A stretch of 61,955 bases of DNA from a virus. Within the stretch, counting starts at the first letter, position 1; each line of letters starts with the position of its first letter. The stretch lies in the IMG/VR virus record IMGVR_UViG_3300032288_000863, positions 1 through 61,955 of that record; one strand, given 5' to 3'. Position numbers and translations under genes: made by a program. The notes below the pieces were generated by a model. The model worked only from the letters and a program-made list of their open reading frames with translations, had not been told where the DNA came from and did no database searches. Below are positions 34,608 through 61,955 of this stretch, one piece after another.

Positions 34608-37055
34608 CTAGTAATACGCCGCCTTTCTAGGCGCGTACTGGTAAGGCAAGTCTACCTCATCGGACGGAAGAGTAATAAACCCTCCCTGACGGAATCTCAT
34701 TAATGCAAGTGTGGTGGCATCCACCAAGTCGTCATTTCTCCCGGCCGGAAAGTCGTTGCACTCCTCTATGACCTCCCGCGCCCAGCGCCTGTCGGGCGCC
34801 CACACGATCCCGGCAGAGAAGAGATCAGACACAGCGTTCACCCGGCTTATCTTGTCCTGCCCCCTGCCCGGGGTGAACTCCCCGAGCGGTATGCCCATCC
34901 GCCTCATCTCTTGATACAGCGCCGCACCGTTGGACTTCTTCTCTACGATGAATGCGTCTGGTTGCCACTCCTTATACTGCTCCAGCACCATCTGCTTCAA
35001 CTCCGGGAACTCCAGACGTTTCTTGATGGCGTTCAGCAGGATGATGTTGTGGTTGTTTGTCTCTTCATTAAAGAAGATCCCCCACGTCAGGAGCGCATTG
35101 TAGTCTGCCCGGTTAGACGTTTCTTGGGCAGCGTCTAGGGCCATAATAATGAAGTCACACTTGGGTGGGTCGTCTTTGTCCCATATCTGCCACCATTCCC
35201 TCTTTATTAGCGCCCCTTCCTCTGCCGTGGGCTGCTGCATGTACTGCGCCTGCCAGTACCGGGGGTCCATTCCGGCCTTCTTCGCCATCAACTCCTCCAT
35301 CGGCCAGAAGTCAGGCCACAGAGGCTTTTCATTTAATATGGCAGGGAACTCGACGACCTCCCACTCGTCAGCGTCATCATTTCTCGTCATGTGGTCGATA
35401 ATCTGCCCGGTCAGGTCCAGCTTGGACCACCGCGTATTGTGGGATACCACACCGTTAGCAATAAAGTTTTCCGTGCGCTCTACTTGAAGATCAAAAACTT
35501 CTGCTTCGCCGTCAGGAAGGATCGTCGTTATCTCGTCTAACGTGACGCTGTAAGTATTCAGCAGCGAGTCGCAAGACCTCGGGGGTTTTGCCATATCCGA
35601 CTGCAAGGTTACAGTCGTTGCAAAGCAGCCCTCGGACCTGTCCGGTATCGTGGCAGTGGTCGATACAGAGTTTTCCCCCCCAATGAGTACGGGTGTTGAT
35701 TTTAGAAGGTACTTGACCACAGACATCGCAACGGTTGCCTCTCTCTGCAACCATACTGTTGTACTGCTCAAGCGTGATGCCATACCGGCTTTTGACTCTA
35801 GCCGCACGCCGGTTCTCCGGACTGTAGCTTCTTCCTCTATACCCTTCTGCCCAACGCTGTTTGTTGTAATGCGTGCGACAAAGCCCTTTACTTTTAGCAG
35901 GCTCTGTACAACCTTCTTGAATGCAGATCTTACCTTTCCATTTACCGTGGTGTCCGACCGGATGTTTGACAGCATCGGGATTTTTTTGCCGGTACCACTC
36001 CCTTGCTCTGCACGCTCCACACAATTGCTGTTTTTTTCTTGCTTGTACGCGGTTGTTGCATCCTTCAATGCTACAAGCGACATACCCGGTTTCAGGTCTT
36101 TCAGTCTGATCCATTGCTGTTCTCCGTCAGTGTCTACAAGAAACGGATGTCTCTCGTTTGCCCGGAGAATTCTACCAGATCGTGTTTGTACTTGGTAGAT
36201 CGTATCAATACCATTTGACTTGTGGTTAAGTACCCGTGATGTGGTTATGCGTCCATCTTCGTATGTCGCTATTTCATCACCGGGGCGCAGGTCTTTAAGC
36301 GGAGTCTCGCTTCCATCAGGGCGTAACACCCCTGTATCCCCCGTCATGCACATCACCACGATGATCGCGCCTCCCGGCATCAGTCGCTGGATGGGGCCTG
36401 ACTGGAACCACTCCCATGCGGGGGCGAAGACATCGGGCCTTCCTTGCTTGGCCTCCTGCTCTGAGTGAGGATCATCAATAATAAATAGATCAGCACCGCG
36501 CCCAGCGAGAGCACCGCCCACACCAATAGCAAAATACTCTCCGTTAAAATTAGTGCCCCACCGAGAAGCGGACTTACTGTCTGCTTGAAGCTCCACTTGC
36601 GGGAAAATATCATTGTACAGATCGCTCCCGACAAGGTTCCGCACCCGTCTACCGAAGTTCACTGCCAGATCGGCAGTGTGCGAGGCCATGATGATCTTCT
36701 TCTGGGGGAACTTCCCCAGAAACCACGCTGGAGCAAGGTAGGAAATCATCTCTGACTTGCCGTGACGGGGGGCAATGTTGACGATCACCCGCTTTTTCCT
36801 GCCCGCCGCAATTTCTTCAAAGATTTTGGCAAGTTTTCGGTGATGGGGCCCCACGATATAGCCGGGGTACACGTGGTTAATGAAGTCTAAAAAGGACTCA
36901 CGTCCCTTTACTTGCGTGATTTGCGACTGATACTGCTTTAAAAGCTCCGCTACGCGACGTTTTTCCTTGTCCGGGAGGTTGGGCAGGGCGTTTTTTAGCC
37001 TTTGTATGTCAGCAAGTGACAGTTTTGGGCCAGCCGGGGGGTTTTGCGGCGTCAT
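34608..37055 (-). CDS. terL: Terminase large subunit, interrupted by an in-frame intein
   Basis: The 815-codon frame encodes a 510-residue terminase (residues 1-235 joined to 541-815) plus a 305-residue intein. ATPase motifs are IAPRHGKS (Walker A, about 94-101) and LFIIDDPH (Walker B, about 190-197). After the intein comes TRWSKLDLTG, the conserved coupling motif. The nuclease domain has acidic sites in MALDAAQ, VEKKSNG and GRNDDLVDA. It would cut and package phage DNA at the portal. The start overlaps the small-terminase stop by 4 bases (ATGA). Splicing must occur for function, because the intein splits the TRW motif from Walker B. Confidence 0.9.
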   Translation of the reverse strand: MTPQNPPAGPKLSLADIQRLKNALPNLPDKEKRRVAELLKQYQSQITQVKGRESFLDFINHVYPGYIVGPHHRKLAKIFEEIAAGRKKRVIVNIAPRHGKSEMISYLAPAWFLGKFPQKKIIMASHTADLAVNFGRRVRNLVGSDLYNDIFPQVELQADSKSASRWGTNFNGEYFAIGVGGALAGRGADLFIIDDPHSEQEAKQGRPDVFAPAWEWFQSGPIQRLMPGGAIIVVMCMTGDTGVLRPDGSETPLKDLRPGDEIATYEDGRITTSRVLNHKSNGIDTIYQVQTRSGRILRANERHPFLVDTDGEQQWIRLKDLKPGMSLVALKDATTAYKQEKNSNCVERAEQGSGTGKKIPMLSNIRSDTTVNGKVRSAFKKVVQSLLKVKGFVARITTNSVGQKGIEEEATVRRTGVRLESKAGMASRLSSTTVWLQREATVAMSVVKYLLKSTPVLIGGENSVSTTATIPDRSEGCFATTVTLQSDMAKPPRSCDSLLNTYSVTLDEITTILPDGEAEVFDLQVERTENFIANGVVSHNTRWSKLDLTGQIIDHMTRNDDADEWEVVEFPAILNEKPLWPDFWPMEELMAKKAGMDPRYWQAQYMQQPTAEEGALIKREWWQIWDKDDPPKCDFIIMALDAAQETSNRADYNALLTWGIFFNEETNNHNIILLNAIKKRLEFPELKQMVLEQYKEWQPDAFIVEKKSNGAALYQEMRRMGIPLGEFTPGRGQDKISRVNAVSDLFSAGIVWAPDRRWAREVIEECNDFPAGRNDDLVDATTLALMRFRQGGFITLPSDEVDLPYQYAPRKAAYY
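35436..36350 (-). other. Intein in terL (305 residues)
   Basis: The first residue is Cys (TGC at 36350), with block A as CMTGDTGVLRPDG and block B as RANERHPFLV containing the splicing His. The end is VFDLQVERTENFIANGVVSHN followed by Thr as the +1 nucleophile. All canonical residues for protein splicing (Cys1, block-B His, His-Asn, +1 Thr) are present. The insertion lies exactly before the conserved TRW motif of the terminase. About 130 residues form the splicing domain. The 170 or so residues between look like low-complexity shadow translation, because the DNA there encodes a nuclease in another frame. Confidence 0.88.
35512..36114 (-). CDS. HNH/endonuclease VII-type homing nuclease, overlapping the intein in another frame
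   Basis: This 200-residue protein is read in a different frame of the same strand and lies wholly within the intein DNA. GGAG sits 7 bases before ATG 36114, so it can be translated on its own. It has two N-terminal Cys clusters (CSIEGCNN...CGAC and CIQEGCTEPAKSKGLCRTH), then CDVCG, CIDHCHDTGQVRGLLCNDCN and a C-terminal helix. DHxHxTGxxRGxLCxxCN is the active-site and zinc signature of the endonuclease VII family. As a homing endonuclease it would cut intein-less terL genes. The overlap with a frame that must stay open for splicing is very unusual. Confidence 0.85.
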   Translation of the reverse strand: MDQTERPETGYVACSIEGCNNRVQARKKQQLCGACRAREWYRQKNPDAVKHPVGHHGKWKGKICIQEGCTEPAKSKGLCRTHYNKQRWAEGYRGRSYSPENRRAARVKSRYGITLEQYNSMVAERGNRCDVCGQVPSKINTRTHWGGKLCIDHCHDTGQVRGLLCNDCNLAVGYGKTPEVLRLAAEYLQRHVRRDNDDPS

Positions 37056-37841: not shown

Positions 37842-37860
37842 TCCTATCGCGGCGATAGGA
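37842..37860. repeat. 19-bp palindrome, copy 1
   Basis: TCCTATCGCGGCGATAGGA is a perfect 9-bp inverted repeat around one base. It is one of six such sites in 37.8-41.2 kb and lies 21 bases before the first early gene. Confidence 0.9.
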
Positions 37861-40062: not shown

Positions 40063-40086
40063 ATTATCTGTTTGAGTGAGAGTGTA

Positions 40087-40130
40087 GTTGTTTGTTGAGT
40101 TGTTTGTTGAGTTGTTTGTTGAGTTGTTTA
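40087..40130. repeat. 12-bp tandem repeat, 3.6 copies
   Basis: GTTGTTTGTTGA occurs three times end to end from 40087, then a partial copy. It lies in the transcribed leader downstream of P2. Confidence 0.85.
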
Positions 40131-40146: not shown

Positions 40147-40165
40147 CCCTATCGTGACGATAGGA
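40147..40165. repeat. 19-bp palindrome, copy 5
   Basis: CCCTATCGTGACGATAGGA has one terminal mismatch (C for T) and otherwise perfect arms. It sits between P2 and the gene at 40217. Confidence 0.85.
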
Positions 40166-40216
40166 CGCGATAAGCGGCGCGGTATTCCGCGTAGCCACAG
40201 TAACGAGGAAAGAGAA

Positions 40217-41146
40217 ATGAACATGATTACCTATACCCCTGACAACATCCCGGCCAGCATCGCTGCCCCGTCGCACATCACCAGCCTGCAAACAGCAGGC
40301 ATTCTCGTAGGGGTGCGTGTCCGCACCACCACGGGCAGTGTGAAAGACCACGAAGCGAGCGAGGAGATCACGGCGCAGAAGAACGCGACGCACGGCGCAG
40401 CCAGCGTGACCAAGCACCTGCTCGACGGGCCGGAGTTCAAGGCGCTAAAGAGTATGTCGAGCGCAGTACGTAACGGCATGGTGCGGTTTTGTTTCCGGTG
40501 GTCCGACGACTGGTGGTACGTGCCGATGGCCCGCTATGACGCCTACTGCACGTGGGAGGCGGAGATCATCAAGCAGTTTGACGAGCGACTAGAGGCCTTC
40601 TTGCACGCATACGTGGCGCTCCGTGCTGACGCTGCGTTCCGGTTGGGCGACATGTTCAACGCGTCCGAGTACCCCACGGTAGAGGAGTTGCGTCGCAGGT
40701 TCGGCATCACGCCCCTGCGTGCCGACGTGCCAAGCGGGGACTTTCGCGTACAGATAGCCCAAGACTTGGCCGATGATCTACGCAAGCACTACGTGAACCA
40801 GACAGCCGAGGTGGTCTCCGGCATGGTCGCAGCGCAGCGCGAGCAGTTGATCGAGGTGATGAAGTCCCTCGCCCACACGTGCGGGACCGAGGTCAAGCAG
40901 AACAAGAAGGGCGAGACGGTCGTCGCACGGCGCAAGCTCCACGAGTCGACGCTGACAAAAGCACTGGAGATGATCGACACATTCCGGCGGTTTAATCCTG
41001 CCGGGGATCAGGTGCTGGAGGACATCCGCACGAGCCTTGAGCAGGCGCTGTCTGGCGTGACTATCGAGACCCTGCGCGAGTCCGACACGGTGCGCTCCCA
41101 TGTGGAGCAGGAGGTGACCAGCATATTGGACAAGTTCCGTCTGTGA
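40217..41146 (+). CDS. DUF3150-like protein, partner of the MoxR ATPase
   Basis: ATG 40217 follows GAGGAAAG and gives 309 residues. The protein is mostly helical with Trp/Tyr-rich FCFRWSDDWWYVPMARYDAY near residue 90 and a long C-terminal helical region (SLEQALSGVTIETLRESDTV). Proteins of this type occur with MoxR-like ATPases and CobT/VWA proteins in phages; I assign the family from memory. The gene begins a GC-rich cassette: 63% GC in bases 40861-40920. Palindromes flank it on both sides. Confidence 0.6.
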   Translation: MNMITYTPDNIPASIAAPSHITSLQTAGILVGVRVRTTTGSVKDHEASEEITAQKNATHGAASVTKHLLDGPEFKALKSMSSAVRNGMVRFCFRWSDDWWYVPMARYDAYCTWEAEIIKQFDERLEAFLHAYVALRADAAFRLGDMFNASEYPTVEELRRRFGITPLRADVPSGDFRVQIAQDLADDLRKHYVNQTAEVVSGMVAAQREQLIEVMKSLAHTCGTEVKQNKKGETVVARRKLHESTLTKALEMIDTFRRFNPAGDQVLEDIRTSLEQALSGVTIETLRESDTVRSHVEQEVTSILDKFRL

Positions 41147-41162
41147 GAGAGGGAGTGCGCGG

Positions 41163-41181
41163 TCCTATCGTCACGATAGGA
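41163..41181. repeat. 19-bp palindrome, copy 6
   Basis: TCCTATCGTCACGATAGGA has perfect 8-bp arms. It lies in the 154-base gap between the DUF3150-like gene and the ATPase gene. The remainder of this gap is AT-rich with AGTTACACAC twice in a row (41269 onward) before AAGGAG. Confidence 0.9.
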
Positions 41182-41300
41182 TGGTGCGAAAGTGAAGGTG
41201 AGAGTACGGAGTTGATTTAGATATTTTAGTTTGTTTCATTTTGGTTTAGTACTTTCTTAGTTAATACAGTTACACACAGTTACACACAAGGAGAGCCATC

Positions 41301-42401
41301 ATGGCTATCAATGCTGCTTCGTTTCAGTCTTTCGTTTCCATCAACGACTGCGCCCGCCTGATCCGCACGGTGGGTGACACGATCACGGTGATCGTCGAGT
41401 CCGAGCCCGGGTGTGGCAAGTCCAGCATCCTGCGCCTGCTGCGCGAGCAGATGGGCGACGAGCATGAGTATGTGTATCTCGACTGCCCGACACTGGGCGA
41501 TGGTGATCTGGGCATGAACATCCCGGATCGGGAGAGCAAGACGCTGGAGTTCTACGTGTCGGCCCTGCTCAAGTTAGACAGCGACAAGCCCGTGGTCATC
41601 ATGCTCGACGAGTATCTGAAGTGCGACAAGCTCCTCAAGAAGATGTTCACCCGCCTCATGCTGGAGCGGGAGATCGGGGACCGTGCCCTGCCCGAGGGGT
41701 CCATCGTGTTCGCCACATCTAACAATGCGTCAGACGGTGTGAACGACACCATCGAGGCGCACGTGGGCAACAGGGTGATGCGCGTGCAGATGGCCAAGCC
41801 GAACCACATCTCGTGGAACGTGTACGCGACCAACAAGGGACTCGACCCCCTGCTCCGTGCATGGGTGGCGTTCAGGCCCAAGGCGTTGCATTCCTACAAG
41901 GAGATCACGCCCGACGAGTTGCGCGACAACGAGTACATCTTCAACCCGACCAAGCCCACTCAGGTGTCGTTCGTGTCGCCACGTTCGCTTGAGAAGTGCG
42001 ACGTGGTGATCCGCAACCGCACGATGCTGGGCGAGGATCTGACCCGGGCGGCGCTGGCGGGTACGGTGGGCGTGCCTGCGGCAGACAGCATGATGACGTT
42101 CTTCATGCTGGAGAAAGACCTGATCCCGGTCCCGGTCATCTTGAAAGATCCCGAGGCGGCGGCGATACCCACATCAGCAGGCGCGACCATGCTCACGCTG
42201 TTCAACGCGGTCGATACCATCGAGACGCAGGACCAACTGAGCCGCATGATGCGCTACGCCAAGCGCCTGCCGAGCGAGGAGTATCGCGCAGTCTTTTTCT
42301 CCATGTTGTGTGAGAGCAAGCGCACCGTGCGGCTCGCCCTTCAGAACGCAGACCTGAAGGATTGGTACAAGGATGCTAACAACCGTGACCTCGTGCACTG
42401 A
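41301..42401 (+). CDS. MoxR-type AAA+ ATPase
   Basis: The protein has 366 residues. Walker A is EPGCGKSS (35-42), Walker B is VVIMLDE (98-104) and sensor 1 is FATSNN (137-142). A helical lid follows. The order and spacing fit the MoxR/CobS group, whose ATPases remodel targets together with von Willebrand A proteins. AAGGAG precedes ATG 41301. The next gene encodes just such a partner. It could be called CobS-like as in cyanophages, but no cobalamin pathway gene is present here, so a chaperone-like role is preferred. Confidence 0.85.
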   Translation: MAINAASFQSFVSINDCARLIRTVGDTITVIVESEPGCGKSSILRLLREQMGDEHEYVYLDCPTLGDGDLGMNIPDRESKTLEFYVSALLKLDSDKPVVIMLDEYLKCDKLLKKMFTRLMLEREIGDRALPEGSIVFATSNNASDGVNDTIEAHVGNRVMRVQMAKPNHISWNVYATNKGLDPLLRAWVAFRPKALHSYKEITPDELRDNEYIFNPTKPTQVSFVSPRSLEKCDVVIRNRTMLGEDLTRAALAGTVGVPAADSMMTFFMLEKDLIPVPVILKDPEAAAIPTSAGATMLTLFNAVDTIETQDQLSRMMRYAKRLPSEEYRAVFFSMLCESKRTVRLALQNADLKDWYKDANNRDLVH

Positions 42402-42510
42402 GATTCGCTAGTTTAACTGGACAAAAGACGTTGAGCCATGAGAGTATCAAGACGATCCGACAGTTGGGTTATGCAGTCGTTGTAGTTCCACACAGTGAAG
42501 GAGATTTGAT

Positions 42511-43812
42511 ATGAGTAACGTAGCCATTGATAACATCGCGCTTGCCGAGCAAGTGCTGAAGAAAGCCCACGTGCGCCTGCTGCGCCATCGCAAGACCTAT
42601 CTCTACAGTGGCGTGCTGCTGCTGGGGGACAGCATGGTGGACGACAGCAAGGGGCCGACTGCGTGCACCGACGGACTGAACAAGTACTACAACAGCAACT
42701 TCCTCGCATCACTGGGCGCGATCAGTAAGGTGTCAGGCCTTGTGCTGCACGAAGCGTTGCACGTGTTCCTCAAGCAGTTGCAGCGGCACAAGGACTTGTG
42801 GGACGAGGACCGCAAGCTCGCTAACGCAGCCGCTGACTATGTGGTCAATGCCATCATCAAGGACATCGAGAACGAGGACCGCGCGGCGCTGGCGGCAGCT
42901 AACAACAAGGCAGACCCCGTGGTGATACTGCCCGACGGTGCGCTGTACGATGCCAAGTTCATCAACTGGTCAATGCGTCAGGTGTACGACTTCCTTAAAC
43001 AAGCCAAGCAAGCTAACAAGCCGCAGCCACAGGACGACGAGGGCAAGGGCGACAAGGACAAGGACGAGGACGGGTGCGACACGGTCTCGGTCGATGGCAA
43101 GGAGTACAAGCTCGACACGATGGACGAGCACGACACGTCAGGCGTCGAGGTGCTGACTGACGAGGAGGTCAAGGAGATGACCGCCAAGATCGACGCAGCC
43201 ATACAGGAGGCGGGGTTGCTCGCCGGGTTGTCCAGCCAGAAGCTGCCGCGTGCCGTGCAGGAGTTGTTCGAGCCAGAGGTGCGCTGGGAGGACGTGATGC
43301 AGGAGTTTTTCGTGAGCCATGCCCGGGGCAACAGCGAGTACACATTCTCCAAGTTCAACCGTCGCCGCATTGTTGACGAGATTTACAGACCACACACATA
43401 CAACGAGAAGCTGGGCCGCGTGGTGCTGGGCATCGACACGTCATGCTCCATCTCACAAGAGCAGATCAGCCGCGTGATTAACCATACAGTGTCACTGTGT
43501 GAGCAGTGCAGCCCGAACGAGTTGCTCGTGTTGTGGTGGGATACGTCAGTGCACGGTGAGCAGCGGTTCAGCGAGGAGAGTTTCGGTAACCTGCGCCATG
43601 CACTCAAGCCGGTGGGGTTCGGTGGCACGCGTGCAGGATGCGTCAGTGAGTATCTGACAACTAACAATATCCACGCTGACTGCATCGTGATTTTCACCGA
43701 CGGGTACGTAGAAGACAACGTCAAGTGGGAAGTATCTGCGCCGACGTTGTGGGTGGTGAAAGGCAACGAGCGGTTTGTTCCGCCCGCTGGCAAGATCGTG
43801 AAGTTCAAGTAA
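42511..43812 (+). CDS. Metallopeptidase-like plus VWA domain protein (DUF2201/CobT-like)
   Basis: The protein has 433 residues with GAAGGAG before ATG 42511. An N-terminal helical domain carries HEALH (80-84), with NAAADYVVN about 20 residues later, as in putative zinc-peptidase domains joined to VWA. A very acidic Lys/Asp linker (about 170-220) separates it from a C-terminal VWA-like domain whose metal site is DTSCS (309-313), with GGT (371-373) and FTDG (395-398). The pair of MoxR ATPase and VWA protein is a recurring module for ATP-driven assembly or unfolding. The substrate in this phage is unknown. Confidence 0.8.
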   Translation: MSNVAIDNIALAEQVLKKAHVRLLRHRKTYLYSGVLLLGDSMVDDSKGPTACTDGLNKYYNSNFLASLGAISKVSGLVLHEALHVFLKQLQRHKDLWDEDRKLANAAADYVVNAIIKDIENEDRAALAAANNKADPVVILPDGALYDAKFINWSMRQVYDFLKQAKQANKPQPQDDEGKGDKDKDEDGCDTVSVDGKEYKLDTMDEHDTSGVEVLTDEEVKEMTAKIDAAIQEAGLLAGLSSQKLPRAVQELFEPEVRWEDVMQEFFVSHARGNSEYTFSKFNRRRIVDEIYRPHTYNEKLGRVVLGIDTSCSISQEQISRVINHTVSLCEQCSPNELLVLWWDTSVHGEQRFSEESFGNLRHALKPVGFGGTRAGCVSEYLTTNNIHADCIVIFTDGYVEDNVKWEVSAPTLWVVKGNERFVPPAGKIVKFK

Positions 43813-43837
43813 GTTAATTAAGTAAGGAGCAAGTGCT

Positions 43838-44878
43838 ATGCAAGACCAGATATTTTATCCCGGCATCTTCAACGACGAGGAGAAGCGGGCTATCGCCACC
43901 GGACCACTTAAGTTTCTCATTCAGAACTTTCACTACAAGTTGAACTCGGTGCCCAAGTTGGTGGGGTATCTAGATGTAAACGGGACTCACATGGCGGCTT
44001 TCTGTACACAAGAAGGCGCGTACTTAGGCGCGGTACGACAGTACAACGATGACTACATGCTGATGTCTTCTGACGGTGACTTTGCGGGATACAACGGAGG
44101 AAATTCCACTGATTATGCTGTATCAAAGAATCAACGCTATCTTGTTAGCGCGATAACAAAACCTCGTGCGTCACGCACAGAGTTCTTTGTCAAGGTTAAA
44201 CGTGCTACAGAATTGGCTTCTGAAGGTGGTGTTTCTGCTCCGTTTGCATCGTTGCTCAGTGACTGTGCAGATGGACTGAGGTCGCTGACACTCAAACCGC
44301 CGAGTGACCCGCCGATGATCACGGCGGCAGAGTTAAGCAGCGGAATACTCCCGGTGGTGTTTGAGGGACAGCCTGTACTGTCAATACCACAGGCACTGCG
44401 TGACAAGATAGAGAGAATCTACAATCACAACAAAAAGCTGAGCAGTGCATACGACACTTTTAATAAAATAGTGGACGATATGTTTGCCACAAATAAATGG
44501 GTGGTCATTCCTATCCAGAGTTACAGACCGAACACGGCGGCCGCACGCACGATGTTTGTTGTGGGTGCAGTGAGATTCAGCGAGACTGCTAAGAATGTTA
44601 TGAAAGATGTATCGGGTTACATGTATAGGGTGCAGCCATACATTCAATTGGTCACACCGTTCAAAGTGTACAGAGATGTCGATGCGCTGCCCGAGGATCT
44701 GGTAACTAACATGACCATGAACAGTATGTTTATGCGTAGCAACGGCACGCAGTTTGTACGCGACACCAATGAGCTTGTGCCCCTACCGACATCACATAGA
44801 CACGTGTTCAGCGAAGCAACGAACTCGATTACGACAAGAGTGAGCCCGCAAACCGCTGTTTATATTCTGGACAAGTGA
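43838..44878 (+). CDS. Unknown protein downstream of the MoxR-VWA pair
   Basis: This 346-residue protein has AAGGAG before ATG 43838. It is mixed alpha/beta with HMAAFCTQEGAYLGAVRQYN and WVVIPIQSYRPNTAAARTMF blocks and no motif I can name. Only 25 bases separate it from the VWA gene, so it is probably co-transcribed and may be substrate or adaptor. Its base composition is much lower in GC (37% in 44461-44520) than the three genes before it. Confidence 0.6.
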   Translation: MQDQIFYPGIFNDEEKRAIATGPLKFLIQNFHYKLNSVPKLVGYLDVNGTHMAAFCTQEGAYLGAVRQYNDDYMLMSSDGDFAGYNGGNSTDYAVSKNQRYLVSAITKPRASRTEFFVKVKRATELASEGGVSAPFASLLSDCADGLRSLTLKPPSDPPMITAAELSSGILPVVFEGQPVLSIPQALRDKIERIYNHNKKLSSAYDTFNKIVDDMFATNKWVVIPIQSYRPNTAAARTMFVVGAVRFSETAKNVMKDVSGYMYRVQPYIQLVTPFKVYRDVDALPEDLVTNMTMNSMFMRSNGTQFVRDTNELVPLPTSHRHVFSEATNSITTRVSPQTAVYILDK

Positions 44879-56276: not shown

Positions 56277-56478
56277 GAAGGAGTTGGTGGGGGAGCCTAT
56301 CTGGGGCTTCCCCTTTGAGTGGATGAGTATAGGGCAAAGTTTTTTTGTCCCTACGCTCAAACCCGCCACGATGATTTACGTTCTGGATACGCGGGCTAAG
56401 GACGCCAAGATAAAAATAAAAGCCTACACTTCTATGAAGGATGGCGTCCTTGGCGTCCGGGTCTGGCGCACGGGCTAG
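56269..56478 (+). CDS. Small hypothetical protein at the convergent junction
   Basis: This 69-residue protein starts at ATG 56269, overlapping the primase stop by 8 bases. The middle (SFFVPTLKPATMIYVLDTRA) looks like a small alpha/beta fold. Its TAG stop lies within CTAG, which on the other strand is also the stop of the giant virion gene, so the two operons abut tail to tail without a terminator. Family not recognised. Confidence 0.6.
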   Translation: MDEKELVGEPIWGFPFEWMSIGQSFFVPTLKPATMIYVLDTRAKDAKIKIKAYTSMKDGVLGVRVWRTG

Positions 56479-59400
56479 TTAATCCCTGCATCTGCTTGAG
56501 CCTTGAGTGCTTCTACACTTTGTACAAACTGACCCTGTATATATTCTTTCTGCGACTTGATCTCACGTAGCATCAATTGTTTTTCTTGCTCCCGCACACC
56601 TGAATAGACCCCTGCCCCAGCATTGATCGCTTTTTCCTGCGACTGAAGTTGTTTAAGTTGTCCGTTGATCGTGCTCTTGTAGAGTTCTACCATCAAATAA
56701 TCCTGCGGATGAGCACGGATGTATTCTTCAAACTGCGGGCGATCCTTGTAAGCACTTAGCAACTCCTGTTTCTTTTCCATCTCAGTGCGGAGATCCGAGA
56801 ACTTACGTGCGTCAACACTGGACCGCTTACCTACAAAGCTGCCTACAAGCGGTAACTCAGTTTTGATGTCGAAGTTTTTCTCCCCGCCAGCAATGTCCAT
56901 AGTGCCTTTTACAAATCCAGCAAACTTGCCTACGGCGTCAAGATAGTTACCAACAAAGAAAGCAGCCGTTTGTGGGTCTATTTTTAAAGGGGTATCCCAC
57001 CCTGCGGTTTCATCCATAAGCCAAGAACTAAAGTCCCGCGCCCACTTAGGCACGTGAAGCCCAGCCGAATACGCGTCGCCGTATTTGTTAACGCGGTCGT
57101 TGTAAATCTCCCTGCCTAAACCGTCTGAGTTGATTACAAACTCTACAATAGGCTTCACCGCCGTAAATGCCACGGTATCCAAGATAAACGCCCCCGGTTT
57201 ATCAAGAGGTGAAAAACGCGGCGCAGGAATAGGCAGGAACGAGTCAAGCGTGATCGGTACAAGGTTTTCGATCATCTCCTTGCCGCTTTGGTGCCCGTTC
57301 ATCCATGCGGCCATTTGCGCTCCAAACGCAGCAAATGCTCCGCCACCAAAACCCCACGGGATTTGTAAGAATTCGTTACCTTCTCCAGCAAACTTCATGG
57401 GAACTCGCAATGCACGAGTCCACATAGACATATCATCCGCTGCTACTTTGTTCCGCCCTTGCTGATCTTTATCTGATGTACTCAGAGCCATCTGATATGC
57501 AAGCATACCCGCTCCAGCAAGCAGGCCACCCATCAAATATGCGTTACGGCTTTCCCGCGCAAAATTAGCTTTGAACTCCGCCCGTGCAGCTTCAGCCCGA
57601 GCATATCTGGGGTCAGTCGGATCAGTTACCTTGAGCAGTGGTGATCCACGCTCCATAGCGCTTTCCACTGACTCAAACGCGGGGCGCATTACGTCCATTA
57701 CCCGGACAGCGGAAGTAAGCGATGGGCGCATAAACATATACAGCGAACCAAGTTCTCGCCCGTACTTACCCACTTGCTCGTAGTTAAACAAGTTTTTGGT
57801 AAATGCAGCAGCTTCTTCTTTGACGGCTTTCTGGAACACTGGATCGTTTATGTTCAGTCCACGAGACTTGCCTTGTGAGGCAAGTTCGCTCTTGATAACC
57901 CCGTAAGTAGATGCACGACTGACAAATTCAAACGCGTCAGCCCATGTAGTGAAAAGCTGATCTACCTGTTCTTTAGTGCGTACAAAGCGGCTTTTGCCAA
58001 CTGCGTCTTTTTCAAGCGTGCCTATATCAAATGACTTCTGAAATGAGCCTCGCCCACCTTCTTCCACAAGATACTCATACGCGTTTTTAGCAAATTGCCC
58101 ACGCATATTCTTGATGGCAGCAAAATCACCCTTGTTGTACAGCCACGATATCTTCATGGCACGGGTAAACGCCCCACTTTCCAATATGTTCCACGCCACC
58201 GATCCGATAATCTTAGGCGCTATGGTAGGGCCAAACATGCCCGCGGAGTTGTAGGCGTTAGTCAGGGTGTCACGAACAAAGTTAAACGGTGCAAACCCCA
58301 AGTTATAGAAGGTGTGCATCCTGCCCATCAGGTGGGTGACACTATTTATTTTGTTCAGTGCATAGTTGATGTCGGTGTTAAATCCATTCAACCCTTCAAT
58401 CAACCGTTTATCACGGAGCGCATAAACCTCCGTGCTACCATCAGGCATGTGATGGAAAAACACGTTCTGTTTACTTAAATCTTCGCGTTGCACCCCATTA
58501 AATTTATCGGCAAACGTAACTTTCTCTATTAGTTTACCATCGAGGTCTTTGTCTCTAATCTGGTTTTTGATGGACTCGGTAATACCGTCACTTGCGGAGC
58601 GTCCAGACGCACGATGTAGGTCTTGTACGATCTGGAGCATCGGGTTGTTGATGGCGGTGCTGCGGCCCATTGCTTTGTCTTCAAGCTGCCTGAACTGCGT
58701 ACCCGCACGTGAGCTACTGTCCAGATCAAACGAAATATCTGCTGTACCGCTGTCCATACCTTTAAACGGTACGTAGTACTTGTAGCCATAGAGTTCCTTC
58801 AGGTTATCTACCGGCTGCGTCCAGTACTTACCTTCTTTCTCCATCGAAATACGCGTAGCGTTTATGGCATCGATGGCATCAAATACTTCTTGTATCTCCG
58901 GTCCATACCTACGCATTTCACGCGCAAATGTCCTGCGCCATGCAGCAAGACTGGCGTTGTCATATCCAACAACTCTGTAGTGGTTAGAATTGATATCCAG
59001 CGCATCGGTCGCTTTTGATGACACCCGGTCGCCTCTGCTTTTACCCCCCAGTTTTGCGTAACGCTGAGCAAGGGTTTCAAGCTGCTGCCGGATGCGGCGG
59101 GCTTCACCGTTAGTTACAAGATCACGGTTCTGCGTCACATAATCAAATAATGCGTCACGGTAAGCCGCAGGGCTGATAGGCTGGTTATTCAACGTCAGAA
59201 CCGGGGCGTCATCAAGCGGCACTATCTCCAGATATTTGAAGGTGCGCTTTTCCAGTTCGTTCAGCGCCATGCGAAGCACGCCAAGATGCTCCAAGGCGTC
59301 CTCAGTAGACATCTTTACTTTGTTGGCGTAATTCTCAACTTTGTCACGCAGTGTGTTTACCAACGGTGTAACACGGCTTTTTTCATTAGCCTCTTGCTTG

Positions 59401-61955
59401 CCCATAGCAAGCGTCATTCTTTCGTTGGTGTTGTTGCCGTCGATCCCGCGCCGAAGCTGATTTGCCCTCCGCAGTGCTTCTTCCTGCGTCAGGAAATACC
59501 GACGATGGTTCTGAAGATTGAACGAAAGATCGTCAAAGCCTTTACTACTAAACGCATGTTTTATGTAGCTAATCAGGCCCGGGCGAGTGTTGGCAGTGGG
59601 GGATATAAACGTGCCTTTTGTACTACCCGGAGTCTGCATAGAAGGCGTGCGTATCTGCTGTACTGTAGGAGCACGACGGCGACGTGCAACGCGGCCCGGG
59701 CGGCGGGCAGCGAGAGGTTCAACTTCCACTCCGGCTTTGGGTATGGTGAGAATGTCACCGACAGATTCAATCGTGCGGAGTAGAGCGTTGTCCATCGTAT
59801 CGGCAGCTTCAACACGCTCCATCTCCTGTGCGCGGCGCAAACCTTTTCCCGGCTCCAACGTGCGCGTAGGTGAAGGCTCTTCCGTCGCTTTTGCCCGGGC
59901 AAACTTGTCCAGACCAACCATCTTGGCAACGGCAATCGTAAAGCTATCCCATGCGGAACGAAGTTTCTGACGCGCAGTTTTGGGTGCACTAAAGTTGAAC
60001 AGGGCGCGTTGGAACCCTTCGTTTGTCATCGCATAGGTAATGAACTCGTACTCGTTTTCATACGCGTTCTTAAACTTTTCTCTCAGCTTTGATTTAGTCT
60101 CGTTGTATATATCAACGATTTCTTTTGCGCCCTGCTTTTGTATCGAGGTGAGTTCATCTGCTTTTTTAGACAGAAACTTCTTCATCACCCCGACAGTAGC
60201 CGAGTGCACCATCTCATGTAGGATGACGCGATCCGTCAGACCGGCTTCTGTGAAGTAGAACGCGTTGGTCTTGGGGTTGTACTCTGCAAGTTTGCCTTCG
60301 CGCTTCAGGCGCTCAACAACAGCTTTGTCTTGACCTTTAAGATTGGCGTTACCTTCAACAAATACTTTGGCCCCGCCAAATGCTGTCTTCTTGAAAGGTG
60401 ATTCTCTTTTTGGAGTTTCAAGAACGTAGGGCAAGTACCGGTTTTCGGGTTTCGCTGGTTCTGGTGCAGGTTTGATAAACTCAATCCGCCCCGTCTCCCG
60501 GTTGTACGTCGCACGCCCTTTTGCGACAGGTGCCATGCGCCCAACTTGGGGCTTAAAGTCTTCTCTAAGCCTGCCTGCTTCTGTCAGCCTGCCTTCGGCA
60601 TCGGTGAAATCATATTTCGTTAAGTCGATATCGGACATGATTGCCCGTTCAACTTCTTTAGCAAGTTCAGCGTGTAAAGTAGGCGCTTCACGTTTATCTA
60701 TACCGCGCTCTCTAGCGATCCGCCTAACTTCAGCGTCAATCAGCGGCCTACGATCATCTCTAACTTCCACGACGTTCAGCAGTTTGTCAGCCAGCCAACT
60801 GAGCGGGCTCTTGCCGCTGGACTCTTCTCGCAGCCGATACAGAGCTTCGCCAAGATTGCCCGAACGCAGTGACTCCGCTACGGAATCGTATCTGGCAGAT
60901 GCACCTTCTTCAGGAGTTTCAACCGGCTCAATGTCCCGTGCCCGCTTCACTTCAACGCGCGGAGCGACAGGTTCTTGTACCCGCTCAACAGAGAGCTTTG
61001 CCTGCTCAGGCGTAGGAGCAAACACATCTGGCGAAGTCGGTTGTGCGCTACGAGGGACCGGCTCACCTACGGGTATGGTAGGTGGTTTTTCTACAACAGG
61101 GACTTCAGGGGGTTTAATTGCTTCTACTACAGGAACCTCAACAGGCTCCTCTACTTTCAGTGCAGGCTTGCCCTTTCTTTTTGGAGCAGCAGCCAAAATA
61201 GCAGGCTGTCCAACATTCTCCACTCGTCCTGCGATATCGACTTCAGGGACTCCGGCGGGGGGCTGTCCCCTTTGTACAGGTGGTTCCACGCTTCCTCTAA
61301 CTGGGACAGCGACAGGTTCTCTAGGCTCGATGTCAACTCTTCCAAGCTGATTGATATTACTTTCACTGCCTGTCTCCGTAGTGACGGGTTTGAACGGCGT
61401 GACATCCGGCGGTGCAATGTATGTACGGGCACGGTTTGCATCTGGCTTAGATAGTATGTCGTTCTTGGTCAGGGCACCGAGAAGATTGCCCACTTGCAGA
61501 GGGGGTAGATCACCAATAATGGGAGTGATCGCAGCACGGAAATTTTCTGGCGTAATTGGAGTACCAGCTTCGTACATATCTTTGACAAGCGAAGCTCCAG
61601 CCTGAAATACAGGACTCTCAGGCGACGTAATTCTTTCTGCCGCAGGTTTCTTTTCGCCGCGCTTGCGTACAACAGGAGGTGGCACTTCACCGGGGGGAAC
61701 AGCGGCTACTTCAGCAGCGGCTGGGGGTACGGGAGTTAGTTCTTCTGGGGGGCGCTCAACAAGTTCCCCCAGCAGTTGCTCCCCGGTGTAAGGAGTAGTT
61801 GTAGGCTCCGCTGCTTCTTCCGCAGGTTTGGCGATTTCTTCTGGCTTAACAAGATTTTCACGGTTGAGAAATAGTTTAACGGTCTTACCACCGCCCGTGC
61901 TTCCTACAAGATCCCCGCGCTCGTACAGGCCACGCCTAATATCACTGGCTTCAGA
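56475..61955 (-). CDS. Giant polyvalent virion protein, main part with zinc-protease motif and LPD38-like region
   Basis: This is 1,827 codons of a gene that starts at 1095 across the window ends. A Pro/Val/Glu-rich linker region (about residues 400-700 of the whole protein) leads to a domain with HEMVH near residue 942 (60204-60218), a possible zinc metallopeptidase. A long helical middle follows. A conserved block around residue 1555 (INYALNKINSVTHLMGRMHT, then LGFAPFNFVRDTLTNAYNSA) resembles the LPD38 domain of polyvalent proteins. A hydrophobic helix (YLMGGLLAGAGMLAYQMAL) lies near 1834. Such proteins are thought to be packaged and injected. A single protein with protease and membrane features suits delivery of an effector, but that is inference. 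Confidence 0.75.
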   Translation of the reverse strand, partial: SEASDIRRGLYERGDLVGSTGGGKTVKLFLNRENLVKPEEIAKPAEEAAEPTTTPYTGEQLLGELVERPPEELTPVPPAAAEVAAVPPGEVPPPVVRKRGEKKPAAERITSPESPVFQAGASLVKDMYEAGTPITPENFRAAITPIIGDLPPLQVGNLLGALTKNDILSKPDANRARTYIAPPDVTPFKPVTTETGSESNINQLGRVDIEPREPVAVPVRGSVEPPVQRGQPPAGVPEVDIAGRVENVGQPAILAAAPKRKGKPALKVEEPVEVPVVEAIKPPEVPVVEKPPTIPVGEPVPRSAQPTSPDVFAPTPEQAKLSVERVQEPVAPRVEVKRARDIEPVETPEEGASARYDSVAESLRSGNLGEALYRLREESSGKSPLSWLADKLLNVVEVRDDRRPLIDAEVRRIARERGIDKREAPTLHAELAKEVERAIMSDIDLTKYDFTDAEGRLTEAGRLREDFKPQVGRMAPVAKGRATYNRETGRIEFIKPAPEPAKPENRYLPYVLETPKRESPFKKTAFGGAKVFVEGNANLKGQDKAVVERLKREGKLAEYNPKTNAFYFTEAGLTDRVILHEMVHSATVGVMKKFLSKKADELTSIQKQGAKEIVDIYNETKSKLREKFKNAYENEYEFITYAMTNEGFQRALFNFSAPKTARQKLRSAWDSFTIAVAKMVGLDKFARAKATEEPSPTRTLEPGKGLRRAQEMERVEAADTMDNALLRTIESVGDILTIPKAGVEVEPLAARRPGRVARRRRAPTVQQIRTPSMQTPGSTKGTFISPTANTRPGLISYIKHAFSSKGFDDLSFNLQNHRRYFLTQEEALRRANQLRRGIDGNNTNERMTLAMGKQEANEKSRVTPLVNTLRDKVENYANKVKMSTEDALEHLGVLRMALNELEKRTFKYLEIVPLDDAPVLTLNNQPISPAAYRDALFDYVTQNRDLVTNGEARRIRQQLETLAQRYAKLGGKSRGDRVSSKATDALDINSNHYRVVGYDNASLAAWRRTFAREMRRYGPEIQEVFDAIDAINATRISMEKEGKYWTQPVDNLKELYGYKYYVPFKGMDSGTADISFDLDSSSRAGTQFRQLEDKAMGRSTAINNPMLQIVQDLHRASGRSASDGITESIKNQIRDKDLDGKLIEKVTFADKFNGVQREDLSKQNVFFHHMPDGSTEVYALRDKRLIEGLNGFNTDINYALNKINSVTHLMGRMHTFYNLGFAPFNFVRDTLTNAYNSAGMFGPTIAPKIIGSVAWNILESGAFTRAMKISWLYNKGDFAAIKNMRGQFAKNAYEYLVEEGGRGSFQKSFDIGTLEKDAVGKSRFVRTKEQVDQLFTTWADAFEFVSRASTYGVIKSELASQGKSRGLNINDPVFQKAVKEEAAAFTKNLFNYEQVGKYGRELGSLYMFMRPSLTSAVRVMDVMRPAFESVESAMERGSPLLKVTDPTDPRYARAEAARAEFKANFARESRNAYLMGGLLAGAGMLAYQMALSTSDKDQQGRNKVAADDMSMWTRALRVPMKFAGEGNEFLQIPWGFGGGAFAAFGAQMAAWMNGHQSGKEMIENLVPITLDSFLPIPAPRFSPLDKPGAFILDTVAFTAVKPIVEFVINSDGLGREIYNDRVNKYGDAYSAGLHVPKWARDFSSWLMDETAGWDTPLKIDPQTAAFFVGNYLDAVGKFAGFVKGTMDIAGGEKNFDIKTELPLVGSFVGKRSSVDARKFSDLRTEMEKKQELLSAYKDRPQFEEYIRAHPQDYLMVELYKSTINGQLKQLQSQEKAINAGAGVYSGVREQEKQLMLREIKSQKEYIQGQFVQSVEALKAQADAGIN

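Follow-up and report, generated by a model that had tools for sequence, protein, structure and literature searches.

Whether four consecutive genes at the head of a viral replication block work as one unit, and on what kind of target they would act, is the question raised by IMG/VR virus record IMGVR_UViG_3300032288_000863, whose entire 61,955 bases are referred to here as the window. The four open reading frames (ORFs), g1 to g4, are all present on the plus strand between 40217 and 44878, in the row and at the positions where an earlier reading of the sequence (the original prediction) had placed a phage MoxR-VWA module with a metallopeptidase and an unrecognised fourth gene. They encode a DUF3150-like protein of 309 amino acids (aa) (g1, 40217..41146, with an alternative GTG start upstream at 40154), a MoxR-like AAA+ ATPase of 366 aa (g2, 41301..42401), a 433-aa fusion of a zincin-like metallopeptidase domain (DUF2201_N) with a VWA-like domain (DUF2201) (g3, 42511..43812), and a fast-evolving 346-aa protein that is particular to this virus group and whose fold has no known match (g4, 43838..44878). 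The true core of the module is three genes, those for the AAA protein, the DUF3150-like protein and the metallopeptidase-VWA protein. The reading put forward here, to which we would give slightly less than an even chance, is that they form a three-part AAA+ machine that remodels proteins and has a proteolytic head; it would act early in infection, with g4 as a virus-specific partner.

A three-gene core in viruses, plasmids and bacteria

Relatives of the locus comprised 207 loci in 72 non-redundant viral contig groups, and g1, the AAA gene and the VWA gene follow each other in this same order in 64/72 of the groups, which argues that the arrangement is not due to chance. In the cyanophage MinM2, too, genes for MoxR, DUF3150 and VWA-like proteins follow one another. 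AAA, DUF3150 and VWA genes lie side by side on the plasmids pRK1-1 and pBMC401, on a Variovorax plasmid and on a Rhodovastum plasmid, the middle gene of the plasmid cluster being matched by the DUF3150 protein of pRK1-1, and in Simplicispira the DUF3150 and VWA genes are adjacent. On a Manganitrophus plasmid, a DUF3150 and an AAA gene occur with no VWA gene adjoining. On plasmid pCAR1, a parallel case, an AAA protein (CbbQ_C) is accompanied by a full DUF3150 protein (scoring 307.6 bits) and by a VWA protein of CobT/NorD-like type, in which the motifs HECSH and DKSGS occur. Its ORF100-103, in which ORF101 is the MoxR gene and ORF103 the VWA gene, were described in 2009 as conserved in R478, Rts1, SXT and R391 (PMC2642839), and from the gene order ORF102 appears to be the DUF3150 gene.

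A scan for the plasmid DUF3150 family in bacterial genomes gave 74 loci, 60 of which have AAA and VWA homologues both within 4.5 kb on the same strand. Among the 12 loci listed with all three genes, which range from Burkholderiales to WWE3, Bryobacterales and an actinobacterium, the order is AAA-DUF3150-VWA, whereas that of the viruses in the group of the window is g1-AAA-VWA, and this difference indicates that the genes have not simply been inherited together as one block. The description of the module as a phage system therefore holds for the viruses and is too narrow, as the three-gene core also occurs on plasmids and in bacterial genomes. On the Burkholderia ambifaria plasmid pBMC401 (L226), the AAA-DUF3150-VWA cluster has a PRTRC-system ThiF gene on one side and a virB-type secretion cluster on the other.

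The plasmid clusters, including pCAR1 and those of Burkholderiales, thus have the same three kinds of gene next to each other, and the VWA protein has HExxH and DxSxS in most of them (the Variovorax protein is without HExxH). They differ from the window in the order AAA-DUF3150-VWA and in having no g4, and the VWA protein of pCAR1 belongs to the CobT/NorD-like subfamily, which the viral profile does not match.

The pair of an ATPase and a metallopeptidase-VWA protein is already known; what is new is the DUF3150-like third part, together with the fast-evolving g4. Group 2.2 jumbo phages resemble the window in architecture, with an AAA+ MoxR gene next to a vWA domain fused to an N-terminal metallopeptidase, for which virion assembly and peptidolytic processing were proposed in 2021 (PMC7824862). 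The window is unlike them in its DUF3150-like third gene, its fourth gene, its 62 kb record and its replication block. In N4-like phages and Schitoviridae, gp24 (an AAA+ ATPase) and gp25 (vWFA) of N4 are core genes (PMC4193335, PMC7650795). This pair is homologous to that of the window (tblastn), and HExxH, the third Asp and the metal site are shared by PhAPEC7, JWAlpha, CB2047-B, Horatius and nACB1; in the first three of these, a dCTP deaminase gene follows soon after gp25. Unlike the window, Horatius and nACB1 have neither a DUF3150-like nor a g4 gene detectable with profile hidden Markov models (HMMs), and in Schitoviridae no DUF3150 gene is annotated next to the MoxR-VWA pair. One gene of a Delftia phage is listed with both DUF2201_N and vWFA (PMC5735904), and AAA-vWA pairs are described in haloarchaeal and Acidianus viruses (PMC7911831). 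A literature search limited to the names DUF3150 and DUF2201 found no description of the trio of AAA, DUF3150-like and metallopeptidase-VWA genes, and no tested function was found in the literature for the zincin-bearing MoxR-VWA pair, which is widespread in phages.

Components of the module and their proposed action

Both domains of g3 score above their curated Pfam cut-offs: DUF2201_N (PF13203) at E=3.2e-25 (89.7 bits, cut-off 23.2) and the VWA-like DUF2201 (PF09967) at 8.3e-13 (49.0 bits, cut-off 26.4), and 42/42 viral relatives of g3 match both at E<=0.001. The first domain contains the HEALH motif (residues 80-84, 42748..42762, plus strand) and D109 (42835..42837, plus strand), a candidate third zinc ligand that, from its conservation in sequence, may bind zinc. 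In the second, the VWA metal site comprises DxSxS (D309-x-S311-x-S313, residues 309-313, 43435..43449, plus strand) together with T373 and D397. All of these residues (H80, E81, H84, D109, D309, S311, S313, T373 and D397), together with D205 and H207, are invariant in the 42/42 aligned viral relatives, in agreement with the original proposal of a MoxR-like and VWA module with a zincin motif. A more diverse set of 31 sequences combined the window protein with those of ten more viral relatives and of twelve other phages (N4-like to jumbo), and with eight plasmid proteins. HExxH is present in 30/31 of these, an Asp at the position of D109 in 31/31 and DxSxS in 31/31, HExxH and the metal-site residues being retained at 20-27% identity among g3 homologues. 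The VWA neighbours of the bacterial DUF3150 genes (n=63) match HExxH in 55 cases and DxSGS in 59. Homologues of g3 are found by tblastn in 510/50,697 phage records, a count that includes GenBank and RefSeq duplicates.

The best phage family of g3, PHROG 1314, is named 'HNH endonuclease', a name that no result of the analysis supports. The same label stands on many phage records of the metallopeptidase-VWA family, and likewise on the Tunturi_3 homologue of g1 (L210:7839-8798).

The g2 protein matches PHROG 1297 'ATPase' (E=2.5e-45) and has a P-loop (SEPGCGKS) and a Walker B motif (LDE), with P36-G37-C38-G39-K40 and D103-E104 invariant in 6/6 aligned sequences. Its match to Pfam AAA is below threshold (16.8 bits, cut-off 21.2). 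In an alignment of ten AAA proteins with plasmid and phage homologues, 7/10 match AAA_5 and 3/10 match AAA_3 (E<=0.01), and one matches bpMoxR weakly (0.004). The g2 family HMM matches the 'MoxR family ATPase' of cyanophage MinM2 (1.1e-18).

The designation of g1 as DUF3150-like is supported, if weakly. Four of the five members of the g1 alignment match DUF3150 (PF11348), the best at 8.6e-5, and the g1 family HMM finds the DUF3150 protein of MinM2 (2.5e-24). A structural model of g1 (pLDDT 85.1, pTM 0.58) has predicted long helices and small alpha/beta parts, and its best Foldseek match in BFVD is labelled DUF3150 (E=3.6e-17, probability 1.00, TM 0.45/0.48). The window protein itself does not match PF11348 at E<=1, and the copy in L008 reaches 19.1 bits, below the cut-off of 24.9; no Pfam family is matched over its cut-off by g1, and the profile comparison of the g1 family with the DUF3150 protein of pCAR1 is not significant. 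In view of the sub-cut-off Pfam scores and this comparison, g1 is called DUF3150-like and not a member of the family. Matches of g1 to folds in the PDB (Z up to 8.6) are generic helical bundles and were set aside. Sequence searches of g1-g4 against the PDB gave no meaningful match, and searches against PADLOC, which took in seven proteins of the module components, and NCBIfam gave none.

Well-characterised cellular systems offer a model for the action of such a module. NorQ/NorD, CbbQ/CbbO and RavA/ViaA resemble the window in combining an AAA+ MoxR ring with a VWA partner that has a metal site, and differ in that they activate enzymes or insert metal, with known substrates. To our knowledge, none of them has a DUF2201 metallopeptidase domain. 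In NorQ/NorD, the model has the VWA domain plugging the AAA+ ring; the metal site of this domain is required for the target and not for binding to the ring (PMC9976466). The ternary MoxR-vWA conflict systems (VMAP, iSTAND, FtsH, beta-propeller; PMC7159879) also combine MoxR and vWA with a conserved third protein, often with peptidase fusions; in the window the third protein is instead DUF3150-like, and no component has a PADLOC match.

By analogy with these systems, the g2 ATPase would form a MoxR-type ring, as its family membership suggests, on which the VWA domain of g3 would dock, its metal site holding the target protein as in NorQ/NorD. The zincin-like N-terminal domain of g3, with its invariant HExxH and D109, would then cut the presented target, and g1, to judge from its conserved company, would serve as a helical third subunit or adaptor. 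Expression of the module together with the early replication block is suggested by its position, and the machine would probably act on a host or replication protein and not on the virion. An early intracellular target is favoured over a virion one by the replicative setting, by the occurrence on plasmids and by the middle expression of N4 gp24 and gp25 (PMC4193335). As the usual third partner in the virus group, a cyanophage, plasmids and bacteria, the DUF3150-like protein defines a concrete complex to reconstitute.

Several observations weigh against such a machine. Horatius and nACB1, which are N4-like, have the pair at loci (two searched by HMM) with no detectable DUF3150 gene, and plasmids pSYSA (Synechocystis), pREL1 (Rhodococcus) and pTHEOS01 (Thermus) have MoxR and VWA genes with no annotated DUF3150. 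The position of g1 under the Pfam DUF3150 cut-off and its non-significant comparison with pCAR1 count in the same direction. HExxH is missing from 8/63 bacterial VWA neighbours and from the Variovorax plasmid homologue, the sole exception among the 31, so that catalysis may be dispensable in some members. In addition, four virion proteins of the N4-like phage RPP1 are encoded near its gp24 and gp25 homologues, which fits a virion role (PMC4193335).

This last observation bears on an alternative already proposed in print for group 2.2 jumbo phages (PMC7824862) and suggested by analogy with the Acidianus two-tailed virus: the targets of the MoxR ring and the metallopeptidase-VWA protein would be virion proteins, which they fold or cleave. 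In S-TIM54, a single small gene separates the pair from a virion structural gene, in line with this view. The trio is nevertheless also found in bacteria and on plasmids (one of which was typed as non-mobilizable), where there is no virion to build, and this spread makes virion assembly less likely as the sole role; moreover, the window trio is in the replication block on the strand opposite to portal and terminase, and N4 gp24 and gp25 are middle transcripts (PMC4193335). Virion assembly or processing is accordingly judged an unlikely explanation.

The losses of HExxH are pertinent to a second alternative, a non-proteolytic chaperone in which the metal bound by HExxH is structural and the complex does no more than remodel or assemble a protein complex, for instance the replication machinery. 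It would suit the replicative neighbourhood, and characterised MoxR-VWA pairs do remodel or assemble complexes (PMC7159879, PMC9976466). The invariance of H80, E81, H84 and D109 in 42/42 viral relatives, and the retention of HExxH including its glutamate in 30/31 of the diverse set, go beyond what a structural metal needs, and we consider that a purely chaperone role would be somewhat surprising.

Insertion of metal or a cofactor, as in the CobS/CobT cobaltochelatase or other chelatases, has in its favour the shared AAA+ and VWA architecture and the mention of cobS/cobT in several phage papers. CobN (PF02514) was found in 0/17 records including the window, which may be fragments, and in 5/14 control genomes by the same search, in keeping with the original statement that cobalamin genes are absent. 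Furthermore, g3 matches DUF2201, and the Pfam families listed for its 42 relatives do not include CobT_C. A chelatase role thus appears very improbable.

A fast-evolving fourth gene

Direct searches with g4 (Pfam, PHROGs, phage tblastn and a scan of viral contigs) gave no match, and its homologues were reached only through synteny and profiles. The nearest relatives of the window are L009 and L010. In L009, g4 is 37% identical to that of the window, and g1, g2 and g3 are 85, 80 and 70% identical; in L010, the values are 26% for g4 and 49, 65 and 55% for g1, g2 and g3. In more distant contigs the gene takes a 'g4b' form, which in pairwise comparison shows scarcely any significant similarity to g4, or none. 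The two forms are united by hhalign (probability 99.1%, E 1.5e-18), and a third form joins them at 100%.

Leaving aside the 4/72 groups that do not span the interval between the VWA and nuclease genes, g4 is present in this interval in 66/68 groups and missing in two. The count is 62/64 when limited to loci retrieved by g1 or VWA queries and 40/40 for VWA queries alone; a further profile, g4x, was made from three ORFs in the g4 slot, and no group was counted on it alone. The claim that the fourth gene goes with the other three therefore holds nearly always inside this virus group. As a general unit, the four genes do not hold together: outside the group, the refuting condition named in the original prediction applies, and the other three occur without g4, which was found in 0/74 bacterial DUF3150 loci and was not detected by HMM in the MinM2, Tunturi_3, Horatius and nACB1 loci.

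The rate of nonsynonymous substitution (dN) in g4 exceeds that in g1, AAA and VWA in 17/17 independent close pairs, with a median of 0.24 compared to 0.07, 0.07 and 0.10, respectively. The median ratio of dN to synonymous substitution (dN/dS) is 0.21 for g4, 0.07 for g1, 0.10 for AAA and 0.12 for VWA, and positive selection on g4 was not seen, the maximum dN/dS being 0.27 over 15 computable pairs. The g4 gene thus diverges at about three times the rate of its neighbours under purifying selection, and this pattern, together with its presence in 66/68 groups, identifies it as a real, constrained and fast-evolving protein. An AlphaFold2 model from 75 sequences (pLDDT 84.9, pTM 0.83) shows two alpha/beta parts with helices between them, and has no match in the PDB or BFVD at E<=0.001. 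Rows returned for this model by VIA-align (Mediator at a best Z of 6.7, the DNA-binding domain of T4 MotA at 4.9) are within the range that the tool calls common, and no fold is claimed from them; a sequence similarity to the MIT domain (0.044) is weak and was judged to be chance.

Within the proposed machine, g4 would be a group-specific partner and most likely a surface that selects or protects a host-varying target, as its rapid divergence under purifying selection and its fixed position suggest. This singles it out as the variable part of the locus and as bait for a host target. The gene could also lie outside the machine, as an independent early gene in a conserved slot, an arrangement compatible with any reading of the other three. 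Its absence from 74/74 bacterial loci is consistent with such independence, as is famA, found in the VWA-to-nuclease interval of 42/68 groups and alongside g4 in 40 of these, which indicates that the interval accepts other genes. Its presence in 66/68 groups, or 62/64 when loci fetched with g4 are excluded, speaks against it. An independent g4 is possible and, on balance, doubtful.

The famA family is itself fast-evolving, with proteins mostly of 330-360 aa and a median dN/dS of 0.22 (for example L002:3163-4233 and L005:7470-8474). It was not found in the window and occurs in 0/74 bacterial DUF3150 loci. Homology between g4 and famA was ruled out (hhalign probability 0.1-0.5).

Control region and genomic surroundings

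The region in front of the module contains copies of a 19-nt palindrome, TCCTATCGnnnCGATAGGA, which occurs six times with up to one or two mismatches, at 37842, 38649, 39385, 39613, 40147 and 41163. The fifth copy (40147..40169, with one end mismatch) is located upstream of g1 and the sixth (41163..41185) between g1 and g2. Its core pattern is matched seven times across the window (expected number, 0.1), and one of these matches lies at 6.9 kb. Among relatives with at least 2.5 kb before g1 (62 loci and, in the count by contig group, 45 groups), 20/45 groups carry their own, different repeated palindrome in at least three exact copies, L009, L010, L012 and L027 being among the relatives with differing palindromes in this region. 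In 17 of these 20 groups, a copy lies in the stretch between 250 nt upstream and 200 nt downstream of the g1 ORF start, mostly 35-53 nt upstream. No repeated palindromes arose in shuffled sequence. The palindromes look like a set of operators of diverging specificity that includes the module.

A broader scenario, which we regard as speculative and rather improbable, is that phages and conjugative elements share a dedicated ATP-driven protease, made up of an AAA+ ring, a DUF3150-like adaptor and a zincin-VWA head, that disarms a host protein which either type of element encounters on entry. In this virus group g4 would retarget it for each host, and the module would be controlled by a repeated operator specific to each lineage.

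Around the module, consensus promoter and terminator sequences are no commoner than in shuffled sequences. The leader of g1 also contains a tandem 12-nt repeat (AGTTGTTTGTTG) at 40086-40129.

Up to about 37 kb, the minus strand of the window encodes virion structure, portal and terminase genes, and a plus-strand block at 40-56 kb begins with g1-g4 and continues with replication-type genes. These are a small endonuclease (PHROG 93, here given the label VRR-NUC), DUF3310, DNA polymerase A, a PD-(D/E)XK nuclease, an SNF2-type helicase and a DUF927 primase/helicase-like protein. The large terminase gene (34611-37055, minus strand) is split by an intein (Pfam Intein_splicing, 8e-18), and an ORF at 35512-36114 on the same strand overlaps it and has, as judged by eye only, an HNH-type look. 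At 56478-61685 (minus strand), a 1736-aa protein has the large-polyvalent-protein-associated domain LPD38 near its C-terminus (1.3e-14) and is possibly an injected or virion protein. The DNA polymerase A ORF of L009 (L009:10144-12837) encodes 897 aa, compared to 616 aa in the window, and carries an insertion that may be an intein.

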